64,000 bases of DNA from Shimia sp. R9_2 (GTDB taxonomy: Bacteria; Pseudomonadota; Alphaproteobacteria; Rhodobacterales; Rhodobacteraceae). The position numbers and the translations under genes were made by a program. The notes beneath the pieces are model-generated. The model searched no databases and had not been told where the DNA came from. It was given only the letters and a program-made list of their open reading frames with translations. This document shows positions 6,600 through 18,012 of the stretch, piece by piece. Position 1 is the stretch's first letter; each line of letters starts with the position of its first letter. The DNA lies in contig NZ_JAGHRO010000001.1 of NCBI RefSeq assembly GCF_017743735.1, forward strand, positions 186,001 to 250,000, written 5' to 3'.

Positions 6600-7421
6600 A
6601 TGTTTCAGCAAAGCGCCCCCAAAACGACGCTCGCTTCGGCACTTAACCTGTCTGAGCTGGTGTACCACTCGATTGTGCGCAGCGTGCGAAAAACGCACGG
6701 CAATGCGCTCATGTCGCTGATCATGAACATGTTGCAGACCATCATGTTTGTGATGGTGTTTTATGTGATGTTCTCGGTACTCGGGATGCGGGGAGCTGCG
6801 CTGCGCGGCGACTTCCTCATTTACATCATGTCCGGCGTGTTCCTCTTTATGACCCACACAAAGACCATGGGCGCTGTGGTGGGATCGGAGGGACCATCCT
6901 CGCCGATGATGAAACATGCGCCGATGAACACGATCATCGCCATCCTGTCCGCCGCTTTGGGCACGCTCTACATTCAGGTGTTGTCGCTTATGACGATTCT
7001 GTTTGTCTATCACGTGGCCTTCACACCGTTTGAGATTCATCAGCCCGTGCCTGCCTTTGGCATGTTGCTCATTGCCTGGTTCACCGGGCTTGCAATTGGC
7101 ACGGTCTTTCTGGCGCTCAAGCCGTGGTTTCCCACCTTTGTCAGCATCGCGAACACCATATTTGCCCGCGCCAATATGATTGCGTCCGGCAAGATGTTTG
7201 TGGCCAACACGCTGCCGCCCTTCATGCTTGCAATGTTTGACTGGAACCCGCTGTTTCACTGCATCGATCAGGCGCGCGGGTTTGCCTTTATCAACTATGT
7301 GCCGCGCAATTCCTCTGTCACCTATCCGCTCATTGTTGGCGTCGTGCTGCTGATGATTGGTCTGATGGGCGAATTTTACACCCGCAAGCATGCCTCCGTC
7401 AGCTGGAGCGCACGGCGCTGA
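6600..7421 (+). CDS. ABC-2 type polysaccharide export permease, KpsM-like
   Basis: The 273-residue protein has a cytoplasmic N-terminus and about six membrane helices, in the arrangement of ABC-2 permeases that export capsule or O-antigen. Near the N-terminus are the family's typical amphipathic stretch and basic residues, ending in a short basic tail. GAGG eight bases before the ATG is the ribosome binding site. No KpsT-type ATPase is encoded beside it: the next gene on the strand is a protease. A partner must therefore be encoded elsewhere, which is unusual because permease and ATPase are normally adjacent. The surrounding Kdo, epimerase and Wza-type genes support a capsule role. The substrate cannot be read from the sequence. 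Confidence 0.75.
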   Translation: MFQQSAPKTTLASALNLSELVYHSIVRSVRKTHGNALMSLIMNMLQTIMFVMVFYVMFSVLGMRGAALRGDFLIYIMSGVFLFMTHTKTMGAVVGSEGPSSPMMKHAPMNTIIAILSAALGTLYIQVLSLMTILFVYHVAFTPFEIHQPVPAFGMLLIAWFTGLAIGTVFLALKPWFPTFVSIANTIFARANMIASGKMFVANTLPPFMLAMFDWNPLFHCIDQARGFAFINYVPRNSSVTYPLIVGVVLLMIGLMGEFYTRKHASVSWSARR

Positions 7422-13219: not shown

Positions 13220-14371
13220 ATGGCAAAACGTGACTTCTACGAGGTGCTTGGCGTCAGCAAAGGGGCTTCGGCGGACGAAATCAAAAAAGCCTACCGTAGG
13301 AAAGCCAAAGAGCTGCACCCGGACCGCAACAAGGACAATCCTGAGGCGGAAGGACAGTTCAAAGAGGCCAACGAAGCCTACGAAATCCTCAAAGACGCAG
13401 AGAAGAAAGCCGCTTATGACCGCTTTGGTCACGCTGCCTTCGAAGGTGGCATGGGTGGTGGCGGAGGCCGTGGCGGCCATCCGGGCCAGGGTGATTTTGC
13501 CTCAGCCTTCTCTGATGTGTTTGACGACCTCTTTGGCGACTTCATGGGCGGCGGTGGCCGTGGTGGCGGCGGGCGTCAGCGCGCCTCCCGTGGTGCCGAC
13601 CTGCGCTACAACCTGCGTGTGACCCTTGAGGAAGCCTACTCCGGCCTTCAGAAAACCATCAACGTCCCGGCCTCCGTGTCCTGTGAGAAATGCTCAGGCT
13701 CCGGTGCAGAGGGCGGCGCTGAGCCGACCACCTGCCCGACCTGCTCCGGCATGGGCAAAGTGCGCGCACAGCAGGGCTTTTTCACGGTGGAACGCACCTG
13801 TCCGACCTGTTCGGGCCTCGGTCAGATCATCAAGAACCCCTGTAAGGGCTGCCACGGTCAGGGCCGCGTCGAGAAAGACCGCGCGCTGTCTGTGAACATC
13901 CCCGCAGGCGTGGAAACCGGCACCCGCATCCGCCTCGCTGGCGAAGGCGAAGCCGGCATGCGCGGTGGCCCCGCAGGCGACCTCTACATCTTCATCGAGG
14001 TGGCGCAGCACAAGATCTTTGAGCGTGACGGTGTGAACCTCTACTGCCGCGTCCCGGTCTCCATGTCCGCCGCCGCCCTTGGCGGAGACATCGAAGTGCC
14101 AACCATCGACGGCGGCCGCTCCCGCGTGAAGATCCCATCCGGCTCGCAATCGGGCCGCCAGATGCGCCTGCGCGCCAAGGGCATGCCTGCCCTGCGCGGC
14201 GGCGGCACCGGCGACATGATGATCGAACTGGCGGTGGAAACCCCGGTGAACCTCACCAGCCGCCAGAAAGAGCTTCTGCGCGAGTTCGAAGAGCTGTCGG
14301 AGGAAAACAACCCCGAAAGCAGCAGCTTCTTCAGCTCCGTGAAGAGCTTCTGGGACAGCATGAAGGGGTGA
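13220..14371 (+). CDS. dnaJ: Co-chaperone DnaJ
   Basis: DnaJ stimulates DnaK ATPase and delivers substrates. The 383-residue product has an N-terminal J domain with the HPD motif (LHPDRN), then a Gly-rich linker. Four zinc-binding repeats follow ([32 protein letters not shown]), then the C-terminal substrate-binding domains. It is a full-length type I DnaJ. GGAG ten bases before the ATG is the ribosome binding site. It is downstream of dnaK on the same strand and ends before a palindrome-rich gap with a strong terminator. Confidence 0.98.
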
Positions 14372-14714: not shown

Positions 14715-15245
14715 CTATCGGTTCTCGAATTGGCGAAGCAAACTAGAAACAACCGCAAATTCAGAATCCTCTAAACCGGGTTGATCAACACAGTTTTCCA
14801 GCTCTTTGAGGATGAAATAGTCACTGGCCGTGGTGATCTTCCCTCTCTTGAGAACCTTTCTTATCGTCTTGCTGACCAGTCCCGCTTCAGATTGGAACTC
14901 AAAGCCAGCCTCATTTCGAAAATCCTCTAGGAACTGACGGATATCGGACGAAAGGTCCTCACCGCCCGTATACATCCTGTAGCACAGGTCAAGATACGTG
15001 TGAGAATACCACTGCTGTACGACTTGAAGGATATGACTGTACTGCCCTGCTGCAGCGTCAAAATCCCTAATGAAAGAAGCACTGGGTAAAACGATTTCAT
15101 TCAGATCTTCTTGCTGAACATGTCCGCGCGCGCGTTTGATCCCCGAAATCCTCCAGGCGCGATAGAATTCCAGCCCCTTTAGCAACCGAAGAAGTTCGCG
15201 TCTGGCTGCATCTCTCTTTGTGTCCTGAGGCACGCTTTCTCCCAT
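14715..15245 (-). CDS. Hypothetical protein, unknown function
   Basis: I do not recognise this protein. From the ATG at 15245 it has 176 residues, no signal peptide and no membrane segment. It is mostly predicted helix, rich in aromatic residues (WYSHTYLDLCYRMY) and in Arg/Lys/Glu. Its codon use is less GC-biased than that of the neighbours, and it lies beside a palindrome-rich gap, both compatible with recent acquisition. The start at 15245 is chosen over the frame's first start because MGES follows a plausible GGCTGGGCC region and the upstream extension is only six residues. It could be an accessory or defence-island remnant, but nothing shows that. Confidence 0.55.
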   Translation of the reverse strand: MGESVPQDTKRDAARRELLRLLKGLEFYRAWRISGIKRARGHVQQEDLNEIVLPSASFIRDFDAAAGQYSHILQVVQQWYSHTYLDLCYRMYTGGEDLSSDIRQFLEDFRNEAGFEFQSEAGLVSKTIRKVLKRGKITTASDYFILKELENCVDQPGLEDSEFAVVSSLLRQFENR

Positions 15246-15315
15246 GGCCCAGCCAACCTTCAACTACTCCGCAGCACTAAAACGATCCGGCTCGAGGCTG
15301 CTGTTCCAAAAAATT

Positions 15316-16191
15316 TCAGAACTCAGCCCCCTCCAAATGCCCCAACACCGCCGCCAGAACCTCCTCCGGCTGCTCCTCAATCAGGAAATGCCCCGCTTCA
15401 ACGCCCTTTCCCACGGCATTGGGGAACCACGTCTGCCAGCACTCCAGCGGGTCCACGTGATGGGCGATCACCCCCTTGGTGCCCCAGAGCACCAGACAGG
15501 GCATCTCAAACTGTCGCCCCTCATCCGCGCGGTCATGCTCCAGATCCACACTGGCCCCGGCCGCATAGTCCCCGCACCAGGCGTCCACCACGCTGGGTCT
15601 GCGCGCCGCCACCTCATAGGCCGCCAGAGCCGCTGGGTGAAACATCTCCAAACTGCCTGACAGCCCGACCAGCGCGGAATGCAGATAGAGCACCGGATCG
15701 CTTTTGATCAGCGCCTGCGGCATACCGCCGGGCTGCGCCAGAAAGGTCCAGTGGTAGTAGCGCTTGGCCAGCCAGTCATCCATCGTGCGCCACACATCAA
15801 GCGTGGGCAAAATGTCCATCAAAGCGATGGACTGCACCGCCTCCGGATAATCCAGCACCATGCGATGCGCTGTGCGGGCGCCACGGTCATGGGACACCAC
15901 ATGAAACCGCTCATGCCCCAGCGCGCGCATCACCGCGACCTGATCCTGCGCCATCGCCCGAAACGTGAAATCCGCGTCATGTGCCACAGAATCACCATAG
16001 CCGCGCAGATCCGGCGCGATCACGCGATACCGCACTGCCAGCTGTTCGGCGATGCCGTGCCACATCACATGGGTTTCCGGAAACCCGTGCAACAACAGAA
16101 GCGGCGTGCCTGCCCCGCCCACACGCAGATGAATGCACGCATTGGGCAGGTCAATCTCTTGTGTCTCAAAGCCGGAAAACACGCCGCTCAC
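15316..16191 (-). CDS. Alpha/beta hydrolase, fluoroacetate/haloacetate dehalogenase-like
   Basis: The 291-residue product has an Asp nucleophile (Asp102 in VVSHDRGARTAHR), as in haloacetate dehalogenases and epoxide hydrolases. The residues known to form the fluoroacetate dehalogenase site all have counterparts. These are Asp102, Arg103 and Arg106 for nucleophile and carboxylate binding, Asp126 and His268 for the relay, and His147, Trp148 and Tyr209 for the halide pocket. Oxyanion-hole residues are in HGFPETHVMW. It would hydrolyse a halogenated short carboxylic acid to glycolate plus halide, or a related ester. It is a lone gene, 23 bases before the binding-protein gene on the same strand. 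The family is firm; the dehalogenase activity is inferred. Confidence 0.8.
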   Translation of the reverse strand: MSGVFSGFETQEIDLPNACIHLRVGGAGTPLLLLHGFPETHVMWHGIAEQLAVRYRVIAPDLRGYGDSVAHDADFTFRAMAQDQVAVMRALGHERFHVVSHDRGARTAHRMVLDYPEAVQSIALMDILPTLDVWRTMDDWLAKRYYHWTFLAQPGGMPQALIKSDPVLYLHSALVGLSGSLEMFHPAALAAYEVAARRPSVVDAWCGDYAAGASVDLEHDRADEGRQFEMPCLVLWGTKGVIAHHVDPLECWQTWFPNAVGKGVEAGHFLIEEQPEEVLAAVLGHLEGAEF

Positions 16192-16214: not shown

Positions 16215-17054
16215 TCACCGTGGGAGCGGCGCCATGGTGAACATCGCGCGCAGGAAATCTCCCGGCTGAATGCCCGGCAGCGTCGCTTCAAAGACCTTCT
16301 GCATCACCCCGCGCGCATACATTTCAGACAGCAGGCCATCCACCAACAGGCGGAAATCCGTGTCGCCGCGCGCCATGGCCAGCCCGTGCTGCTCCACCGT
16401 CAGGATCGCATTGCTGAGCTTGAGATTGCCGCGATCTTCGCTGCTCAGCCACAGTGCTGCGAGAATCGACTGGTCCGCAAAATAGGCATCCAGCTCGCCA
16501 TTCTCCAACGCCTCCATCGCCGCATCATGATCGGCAAAGCGCACCACCTCGGCAAACAGCCCTGCTCCAGTCAGCGTGTTGGTGAGCGCGGTCTCGGTGG
16601 TGGTGTCACGCCGCACACCCAGTTTCTTGCCCGCCAGATCCGCAAAATTGTCAGAGCCGTTCAGGGGCAGAAGGATCGACGTGCCATCGGCAAAAACCGG
16701 AATGGAAAAATCCACGATCTCGCGCCGTGACAAGGTGATGGTGGCGGCCCCGCACAGCAGGTCAATCTCGCCTGCGGCCACTTTCTCAAACCGGTCCTGC
16801 GCGCCGACCGGGACAAATTCCACATCCAGATTGGGGATCTTAATCGTGTTCAGAATGCCCTGTGCCAGTTCGGCACACACCAGCGGGGTGTAGCCGCTCG
16901 GATTGCCGTCTTCGGCTTGAAAGGACAGCGGCGCGGCATCCACGCGATAGCCCAGTTTGAGCTGCCCGGTTTCCTTTATCCGTTCGATGGTCTGCGCGCT
17001 GGCAGCCCCCGCCAAAAGGGCAGTGGCCATAACAAGGCTCAAAAAGGATTTCAT
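16215..17054 (-). CDS. Amino-acid ABC transporter substrate-binding protein, family 3 (orphan)
   Basis: The 279-residue product from the ATG at 17054 has an N-terminal signal peptide (ending near ASAQT). The SBP_bac_3 fold shows GQLKLGYRVDAAPLSF, DLLCGAATITLSRRE and GKKLGVRRDTTTE, characteristic of polar amino-acid binding proteins. AGGATA seven bases upstream supports this start over the frame's 22-codon extension. No permease or ATPase gene is adjacent; the neighbours are a hydrolase and radC. It may feed a transporter encoded elsewhere or act as a periplasmic enzyme such as a cyclohexadienyl dehydratase-like protein. The binding specificity is not readable. Confidence 0.82.
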   Translation of the reverse strand: MKSFLSLVMATALLAGAASAQTIERIKETGQLKLGYRVDAAPLSFQAEDGNPSGYTPLVCAELAQGILNTIKIPNLDVEFVPVGAQDRFEKVAAGEIDLLCGAATITLSRREIVDFSIPVFADGTSILLPLNGSDNFADLAGKKLGVRRDTTTETALTNTLTGAGLFAEVVRFADHDAAMEALENGELDAYFADQSILAALWLSSEDRGNLKLSNAILTVEQHGLAMARGDTDFRLLVDGLLSEMYARGVMQKVFEATLPGIQPGDFLRAMFTMAPLPR

Positions 17055-17212
17055 GGGGTATCCTGTCTCAAAAATAATTCGTGTTGGCGTTACCTTTCCA
17101 GCTTCCGGGAAGGGCCACAAGCGCGATTTCCGCGCACAAAGGTTAACGAAATTGGCACCGTCGCGTTACAGCCGCGATACCGACGTGCGATTTTGCAGAA
17201 ATCTGACCTTTG

Positions 17213-17250: not shown

Positions 17251-18012
17251 ATGTCCAGAGCGAACGACTTTGGGGAACGGCCGTTGCCGCTTTTTGAAGC
17301 GGACGAGGCCGTTGGGTCGCCGCTCAAGACCGGTAAACTACCCTCCTATATTGCGGATCACCGCAAGCGCCTGCGCACCCGCTTCATTAACGGCGGCGCG
17401 CAGGCGCTCCCTGATTATGAGCTGCTGGAACTGGTGCTGTTTCGCGCAATCCCGCGACGGGATGTGAAATCCATCGCACATAAGCTTCTGGAAACATTCG
17501 GAGATTTCAACGCGGTCATCAGCGCGCCCCTGCCACGCCTTGCGCAGGTCAAAGGCGTGGGCGAGGCGGTGATCTGTGAACTGAAGGTGATTGAGGCCGC
17601 CGCCCACCGTCTGGCCCGCTCGCGTGTGATGCACCGCCCGATCCTGTCGAGCTGGGAGGCGCTGCTGGATTATTGCCACACCACCATGGCGCATCGCGAC
17701 ACCGAACAGTTTAGGGTGCTGTTTTTAGACACAAAAAACACGCTGATTGCCGACGAAGCGCAGGCACAGGGCACGGTCAACCACGTGCCTGTCTACCCCC
17801 GTGAGGTCGCCAAACGCGCGCTGGAGCTCAACGCAAGCGCCCTCATTCTGGTGCACAACCACCCATCCGGAGACCCGACCCCGTCAGAGGCGGATATCGC
17901 CATGACCCATCAGATCGAGATGGCCTGTCAGACCCTCGCGCTGACCCTGCATGACCATATAATCATTGGGAAATCCCGCGAGTTGAGCTTCCGCTCCGAA
18001 GGGCTGATTTAG
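17251..18012 (+). CDS. radC: RadC-family JAB-domain protein
   Basis: RadC-type proteins carry a JAB1/MPN metalloprotease-like domain; an original role in DNA repair is disputed and the function is unsettled. The 253-residue product has a helix-hairpin-helix-like N-terminal half (about residues 50-110) with RLAQVKGVGEAVICELK. The C-terminal metal site is HNHPSGDPTPSEADI, with the His, His and Asp ligands. The length is standard. It stands alone, and its stop codon comes one base before the convergent OmpA-fusion stop. Confidence 0.92.
   Translation: MSRANDFGERPLPLFEADEAVGSPLKTGKLPSYIADHRKRLRTRFINGGAQALPDYELLELVLFRAIPRRDVKSIAHKLLETFGDFNAVISAPLPRLAQVKGVGEAVICELKVIEAAAHRLARSRVMHRPILSSWEALLDYCHTTMAHRDTEQFRVLFLDTKNTLIADEAQAQGTVNHVPVYPREVAKRALELNASALILVHNHPSGDPTPSEADIAMTHQIEMACQTLALTLHDHIIIGKSRELSFRSEGLI

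Follow-up and report, generated by a model that had tools for sequence, protein, structure and literature searches.

The open reading frame (ORF) at 15316..16191 on the minus strand of the 64,000-nt stretch of Shimia sp. R9_2 DNA analyzed here (the window) was found to encode an alpha/beta hydrolase of the fluoroacetate dehalogenase (FAcD) family. This family assignment is well supported, and the product is probably a 2-haloacid dehalogenase. By analogy to assayed relatives, we favor with good confidence the reading that it hydrolyzes small 2-halocarboxylates, most likely fluoro-, chloro- and/or bromoacetate and possibly larger 2-halo acids.

The ORF has a GTG start and an intact reading frame of 291 codons, and its match to Pfam Abhydrolase_1 (PF00561) scored 117.8 bits against a cut-off of 25.8. 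The GTG at 16182 (codon 4), which would give 288 codons, appears a likelier start than that at 16191, since AGAGG is seen by eye about 10 nt upstream, the resulting N-terminus (MFSGF...) resembles the family consensus MFxGF, and the 288-codon frame of an ortholog has its first start codon there. The product is probably cytoplasmic.

The original prediction had listed a full set of FAcD active-site residues at offsets of 8 to 12 from the published enzyme, and both statements held. By HMMER alignment, ORF position and family alignment, residues D102, R103, R106, D126, H147, W148, Y209 and H268 correspond to D110, R111, R114, D134, H155, W156, Y219 and H280 of Rhodopseudomonas palustris RPA1163, with an offset of 8 for the first six residues followed by 10 and 12. 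An Asp-His-Asp triad is formed by the nucleophile Asp102 (codon 15886..15888, minus strand as for all codons given here), the catalytic base His268 (15388..15390) and the relay acid Asp126 (15814..15816). Two carboxylate-binding arginines, Arg103 (15883..15885) and Arg106 (15874..15876), follow the nucleophile, and the halide pocket is made up of His147-Trp148 (15748..15753) and Tyr209 (15565..15567). This residue set is not a matter of chance, as the homology is full-length (3.2e-83 to 3qyj and 5.1e-72 to 3r3u). Within the same genome, the DNA pattern for HDRG[A/G]R (CGN arginines only) was detected at two sites, this ORF and a 118-codon frame on contig C24 that had no match in a protein search of the genome. 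Among 32 Abhydrolase_1 matches in this genome, three other hydrolases from the protein search (30-36% identical over the matched part) were checked residue by residue, and the eight-residue set was absent from these three.

By homology to RPA1163, H-1 and NOS0089, Arg103 and Arg106 would hold the carboxylate of the substrate while Asp102 makes an SN2 attack on the alpha carbon. The leaving halide would be held by His147, Trp148 and Tyr209. A water molecule that His268 activates, Asp126 acting as relay, would then hydrolyze the ester and release the 2-hydroxy acid. The same mechanism is proposed for FA1 and H-1. A homodimer with half-site reactivity is a feature of the FAcD family, and the ORF product may dimerize likewise.

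Sequence similarity and predicted fold both place the ORF in this family. Its best match among solved chains was 3qyj, Nostoc Alr0039/NOS0089 (3.2e-83, 283 bits), with scores to other solved FAcDs of 5.1e-72 for 3r3u/RPA1163, 1.9e-70 for 8sdc/DAR3835 and 2.6e-65 for 1y37/FA1; after RPA1163 the order of matches was DAR3835, D4B, a Pseudomonas aeruginosa 'probable epoxide hydrolase', FA1 and a Salmonella 'putative acyltransferase'. Assayed FAcDs (FA1, DAR3835, RPA1163, NOS0089) scored 224-283 bits, compared to 66 bits or less for haloalkane dehalogenases, and no family of the HAD superfamily, to which another group of 2-haloacid dehalogenases belongs, was found among the 24 NCBIfam matches of the ORF. 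An AlphaFold2 monomer model, built from 36 aligned family members (from the window or fetched loci), had a mean pLDDT of 96.1 and a pTM of 0.94. When this model was superposed on entries found by Foldseek, 3qyj gave Z 46.4 (rmsd 1.0 over 285 residues), FA1 (3b12) 45.6 and DAR3835 45.5. The 50 listed entries spanned Z 43.6-46.4; FA1, RPA1163, DAR3835, D4B and Alr0039 are among them, as are the P. aeruginosa and Salmonella proteins, whose function is unproven. Entries within one Z unit are tied, so that these figures place the ORF in the FAcD family and not beside any one member.

In PMC11022551, Alr0039 is equated with NOS0089, and DAR3835, NOS0089 and POL4478 are reported to defluorinate difluoroacetate as well as fluoroacetate. 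As 3qyj is thus Alr0039/NOS0089, the closest solved relative of the ORF is an assayed FAcD. The functional part of the original prediction therefore stood with respect to family membership, on residues, sequence score, predicted fold and closest solved relative, and we infer by analogy that the ORF product may also defluorinate. No assay of this protein or of any member of its branch (see below) was found in the open-access literature, which is weak evidence of absence, and passages of PMC12350541 and PMC8461649 gave no further evidence at residue level.

Compared in detail, NOS0089 of Nostoc sp. PCC 7120 has the same eight residues (48.9% identity over 278 pairs) but carries Trp and Thr where the ORF has Leu177 and Trp205, respectively. 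RPA1163 (3r3u and others; 43.2% identity over 280 pairs) shares the catalytic, carboxylate and halide residues and differs at Trp185 (Leu177 in the ORF), Met215 (Trp205), Tyr141 (Val133) and Lys85 (Phe77), with two extra residues after Trp185. FAc-DEX FA1 (1y37, 3b12) has the same fold as the ORF model but a lower similarity (39% identity, 224 bits). D4B of Delftia acidovorans (9c9f), an FAcD by its depositors' naming, has the same eight residues with Arg at the Trp185 position.

How common the residue set and the family are was examined in an alignment of 130 sequences, composed of homologs from 60 relatives, a genome-collection scan, a family survey, two plasmid records and six PDB chains. 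The scan contributed the best 80 of 579 confirmed homologs, and the sample thus leans to near relatives. Three rows were removed before counting, namely a fragment (L034), a duplicate of Actibacterium pelagium (L165, the same place as L035) and one that repeated another result (L022, as L021); a branch match listed with one internal TGA (L163) was retained, as its frame is open over 291 residues. This left 12 sequences in the branch of the ORF and 115 outside it (109 from genomes or plasmids and six PDB chains). The eight-residue set was found in 12 of 12 branch members and, in this sample leaning to near relatives, in 99 of the 109 genome or plasmid homologs outside the branch; the ten exceptions include replacements of the halide His by Trp or Pro, of the relay Asp by Glu and of the nucleophile by Asn. 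Five of the six PDB chains have the set as typed and four have it naturally, since the relay Asp of 4bat was introduced by mutation in place of a wild-type Thr. Homologs at E <= 1e-40 were detected in 20 of the 60 related genomes, that of the ORF included, and 352 of 72,556 plasmid records carried one at E <= 1e-30; the family is therefore not rare in sequence collections, and the rarity that had been suggested for this finding is not supported by these counts. As judged from the alignment, the eight-residue set is a mark of the family and not of the substrate.

Several homologs were also observed in settings of their own. Fifty-eight Klebsiella plasmid records carry an FAcD-family homolog (about 39% identity in rows H80-H88), some annotated as haloacetate dehalogenase H-1. 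Streptomyces cattleya is a fluoroacetate producer, and the homolog on its plasmid pSCAT (L161, 3001-3849) has Leu in place of both the second carboxylate Arg and the halide Trp, as if it were unable to attack fluoroacetate. In a side group (L043, L056, L065, L160 and PDB 4nvr), the His of the halide pocket is replaced by Trp, with Gln at the Trp185 position in L056, L065, L160 and 4nvr; L160 is annotated as haloacetate dehalogenase H-1 and 4nvr as an acyltransferase.

A pocket difference that had escaped the original prediction sets the ORF apart: the Trp typical of the best-studied FAcDs at RPA1163 position 185 is Leu177 (codon 15661..15663). Counts for the cap residues rest on the multiple alignment, as pairwise alignments placed the gap wrongly in at least five sequences. 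By this approach, Leu was found in all 12 branch members, compared to Trp (60), Arg (24) and Leu (11) among the 115 sequences outside. At the position of Trp205 (codon 15577..15579; RPA1163 Met215), every branch member but Dietzia (Ile) carries Trp (11 of 12), which is absent from all 115 others, including the 11 that have Leu at the Trp185 position. In the model, Trp205 lies in helix 199-212, four residues ahead of Tyr209, and from this helix geometry it would face the pocket.

The 12 branch members come from two species of the same genus as the ORF, seven other genera of its bacterial family, Kocuria and Dietzia (53% identity to the ORF, compared to 59-62% for Kocuria); Actibacterium pelagium, one of the same-family genomes with a match of at least 63% identity, belongs to the Roseobacteraceae in NCBI naming. 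In trees built from chosen rows of family members, with no outgroup, the branch was separated from all other rows with an SH-aLRT of 99 (79 rows) and a bootstrap/SH-aLRT support of 100/99 when both trait columns were masked (56 rows). Of the assayed FAcDs, the trees covered NOS0089, RPA1163 and DAR3835 (but not FA1, H-1 and POL4478), and all three lie apart from the branch. The sister group, drawn from the same bacterial family, has Trp in six sequences and Leu in one, and its link to the branch is weak (61/80). On the trees, the Leu177/Trp205 trait is one event with a single ancestor for all 12 members and does not count as repeated evidence. The ORF product is an ordinary member of the family, from a branch that is apparently unassayed.

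The altered pocket may bear on what the enzyme does. A protein with the FAcD fold could have another main reaction (hydrolysis of an ester, lactone or epoxide, or action on a larger carboxylate substrate), with dehalogenation as a side activity. We regard this as rather unlikely, since none of the 12 branch members has lost either carboxylate arginine or any part of the halide pocket, even though Leu occupies the Trp185 position across the whole branch and Trp205 is specific to it. In its favor, a Serratia alpha/beta hydrolase with serine for Asp is described in PMC13230308 as an esterase, deformylase and defluorinase.

The epoxide form of this alternative was considered further. In soluble epoxide hydrolases, the epoxide oxygen is activated by a Tyr/Tyr or His/Tyr pair of the lid, and His147 and Tyr209 of the ORF could in principle serve as such a pair. 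Closest similarity speaks against membership in that group, as the best soluble epoxide hydrolase, 7ac0, scored 100 bits (1.3e-27) and 1ehy 82 bits, against 283 bits for NOS0089. By score, the P. aeruginosa protein of 4b9a and 4b9e is a near relative; it is titled 'putative epoxide hydrolase', although structures of it with MFA exist. The wild type has seven of the eight residues, with Thr at the relay Asp and Met at the Trp185 position, and is thus not an example of the full set under another name. The chain of this protein in our alignment, 4bat, is by its title a T131D mutant, in which the depositors put the relay Asp into a protein that has Thr in wild type 4b9a. On this ground the protein was rejected as an example of the full set in an enzyme called epoxide hydrolase, which slightly weakens the alternative of another main reaction.

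Work on the Trp185 position itself gives a mixed picture for the dehalogenase reading. According to PMC11465415, Trp185 of RPA1163 lies in the substrate pocket and becomes restricted on substrate binding. PMC12955510 reports that smaller residues at this position aided turnover of sterically demanding 2-fluoro acids by RPA1163, whereas the equivalent Trp180 was almost always kept when H-1 was selected on 2-fluoropropionate; Arg at this position is noted in an alignment in the same paper. Given the near-constant Trp180 of H-1, the Leu of the ORF would count against dehalogenation. By PDB title, RPA1163 Trp185Tyr and Trp185Gly variants were solved with 2-fluoro-3-phenylpropanoic acid or a larger analogue. 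Two structures with 2-fluoro-3-phenylpropanoic acid, 21bk (His280Ala) and 9u5x (Lys181Met/His280Ala), keep Trp185, which therefore does not by itself exclude this acid, and as D4B has Arg at the position, Trp185 is not universal among named FAcDs. By analogy, Leu177 would not exclude activity, and an altered substrate range is plausible because substitutions of Trp185 in RPA1163 help with bulkier 2-fluoro acids. Leu177 and the branch-specific Trp205 probably reshape the entrance of the pocket, and the range of substrates may shift as a result. More tentatively, and with the odds against it, the branch may be a natural 'Trp-moved' FAcD subfamily in which Leu opens the pocket mouth and Trp205, one helical turn ahead of Tyr209, partly refills it; such enzymes would be suited to 2-halo acids of the marine environment that are larger than fluoroacetate.

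The haloacetate dehalogenase reading also has a narrower version, with overlapping odds, in which a true haloacetate dehalogenase favors chloro-, bromo- or iodoacetate and handles the C-F bond poorly. Bromo- and iodoacetate are substrates of a marine L-2-haloacid dehalogenase with a different fold, which confers tolerance to the two compounds (PMC8490876), and the genome of the ORF also has a type II 2-haloacid dehalogenase. Nonetheless, the His-Trp-Tyr fluoride pocket is intact in the ORF and assayed FAcDs of the family defluorinate (PMC11022551), and we consider a poor reaction with C-F to be possible but somewhat unlikely. The type II gene, of the HAD type, lies at C18:807243-807845 (L190; 191.5 bits, cut-off 125.4), and an alpha/beta hydrolase match begins about 140 bp beyond it (C18:807983).

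With respect to gene position, the ORF lies within a block, dnaK-dnaJ-(solute-binding protein)-radC, that is stable in the genus. The gene at 13220..14371 (plus strand), which we take to be dnaJ, forms the left border of the insertion, and radC (17251..18012, plus), assigned by ORF, Pfam and genus comparison, forms the right border of the block. Upstream of the dehalogenase gene and co-directional with it, at a gap of 23-32 bp, is a family-3 solute-binding protein gene (16215..17120, minus; Pfam) that is resident in the block. RadC gave a match in 24 of the 25 genus genomes, and the block region was compared in 20 of the 23 other RadC-positive ones. In one region (genome G011) the dehalogenase lies between dnaJ and the solute-binding protein gene, 17 have the solute-binding protein gene only and two match neither gene. 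A conserved pairing of the two genes was rejected, as the solute-binding protein gene is in place without the dehalogenase in 17 of 19 other same-genus regions. In dehalogenase-free regions the spacing between the dnaJ and solute-binding protein matches ranges from about 55 to 1360 bp, and the site is therefore a variable slot. Beside dnaJ, the slot also holds a 182-codon ORF (14715..15263, minus) that has no Pfam match and no counterpart in the G011 region; G011 has instead a 191-codon ORF (L140 2932-3507, minus) that by eye resembles a GNAT acetyltransferase.

The distribution of the gene is patchy. An ortholog was found in 2 of 25 genomes of the genus (that of the ORF counted), with six others having only homologs of 39-44% identity, and a survey of 394 genomes of the bacterial family yielded eight (again including its own) with a match of at least 63% identity. 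Horizontal transfer between phyla is likely because Kocuria and Dietzia share the branch with Rhodobacteraceae-type sequences, and the gene itself probably entered the variable slot between dnaJ and the solute-binding protein gene by horizontal transfer. Between the ORF genome and G011, dS was 0.276 for dnaJ, close to the 0.284 of the dehalogenase, compared to 0.80 for the solute-binding protein and 0.84 for radC, which would fit a single recombination tract, common to the two genomes, that covers dnaJ as well as the dehalogenase.

Inspection by eye of ORF starts in seven other same-family regions and in Kocuria and Dietzia revealed no neighbor common to the branch. No dedicated haloacid or fluoride gene was found by Pfam scan among the five neighboring ORFs, and no fluoride riboswitch was detected in the window at Rfam gathering scores. 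CrcB is present in the genome on another contig (C22) and is common (10 of 14 control genomes). The same Rfam search placed a Ruegeria cis2 sRNA (RF02645) at 7166-7310 (minus; 79.2 bits), which fits a roseobacter-type genome.

Patchiness in the genus and the lack of common neighbors across the branch could also be signs of a decaying, non-functional acquisition. This explanation is highly improbable: dN/dS between the ORF and its 93% identical ortholog in G011 is 0.118, and the gene is thus under purifying selection; the frame is intact, and all 12 branch members keep the eight residues.

The analysis corrects an easy misreading, in that the eight residues tell the family and not the substrate. 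If active, the ORF product would extend the best-studied alpha/beta-hydrolase defluorinases by an enzyme of a branch that is apparently unassayed. It would also offer a natural test of the role of the pocket Trp185, which appears nearly indispensable from the H-1 selections and a gate to bulky substrates from the RPA1163 variants. Should the 'Trp-moved' reading be true, the branch would be the natural counterpart of the engineered RPA1163 Trp185 variants.
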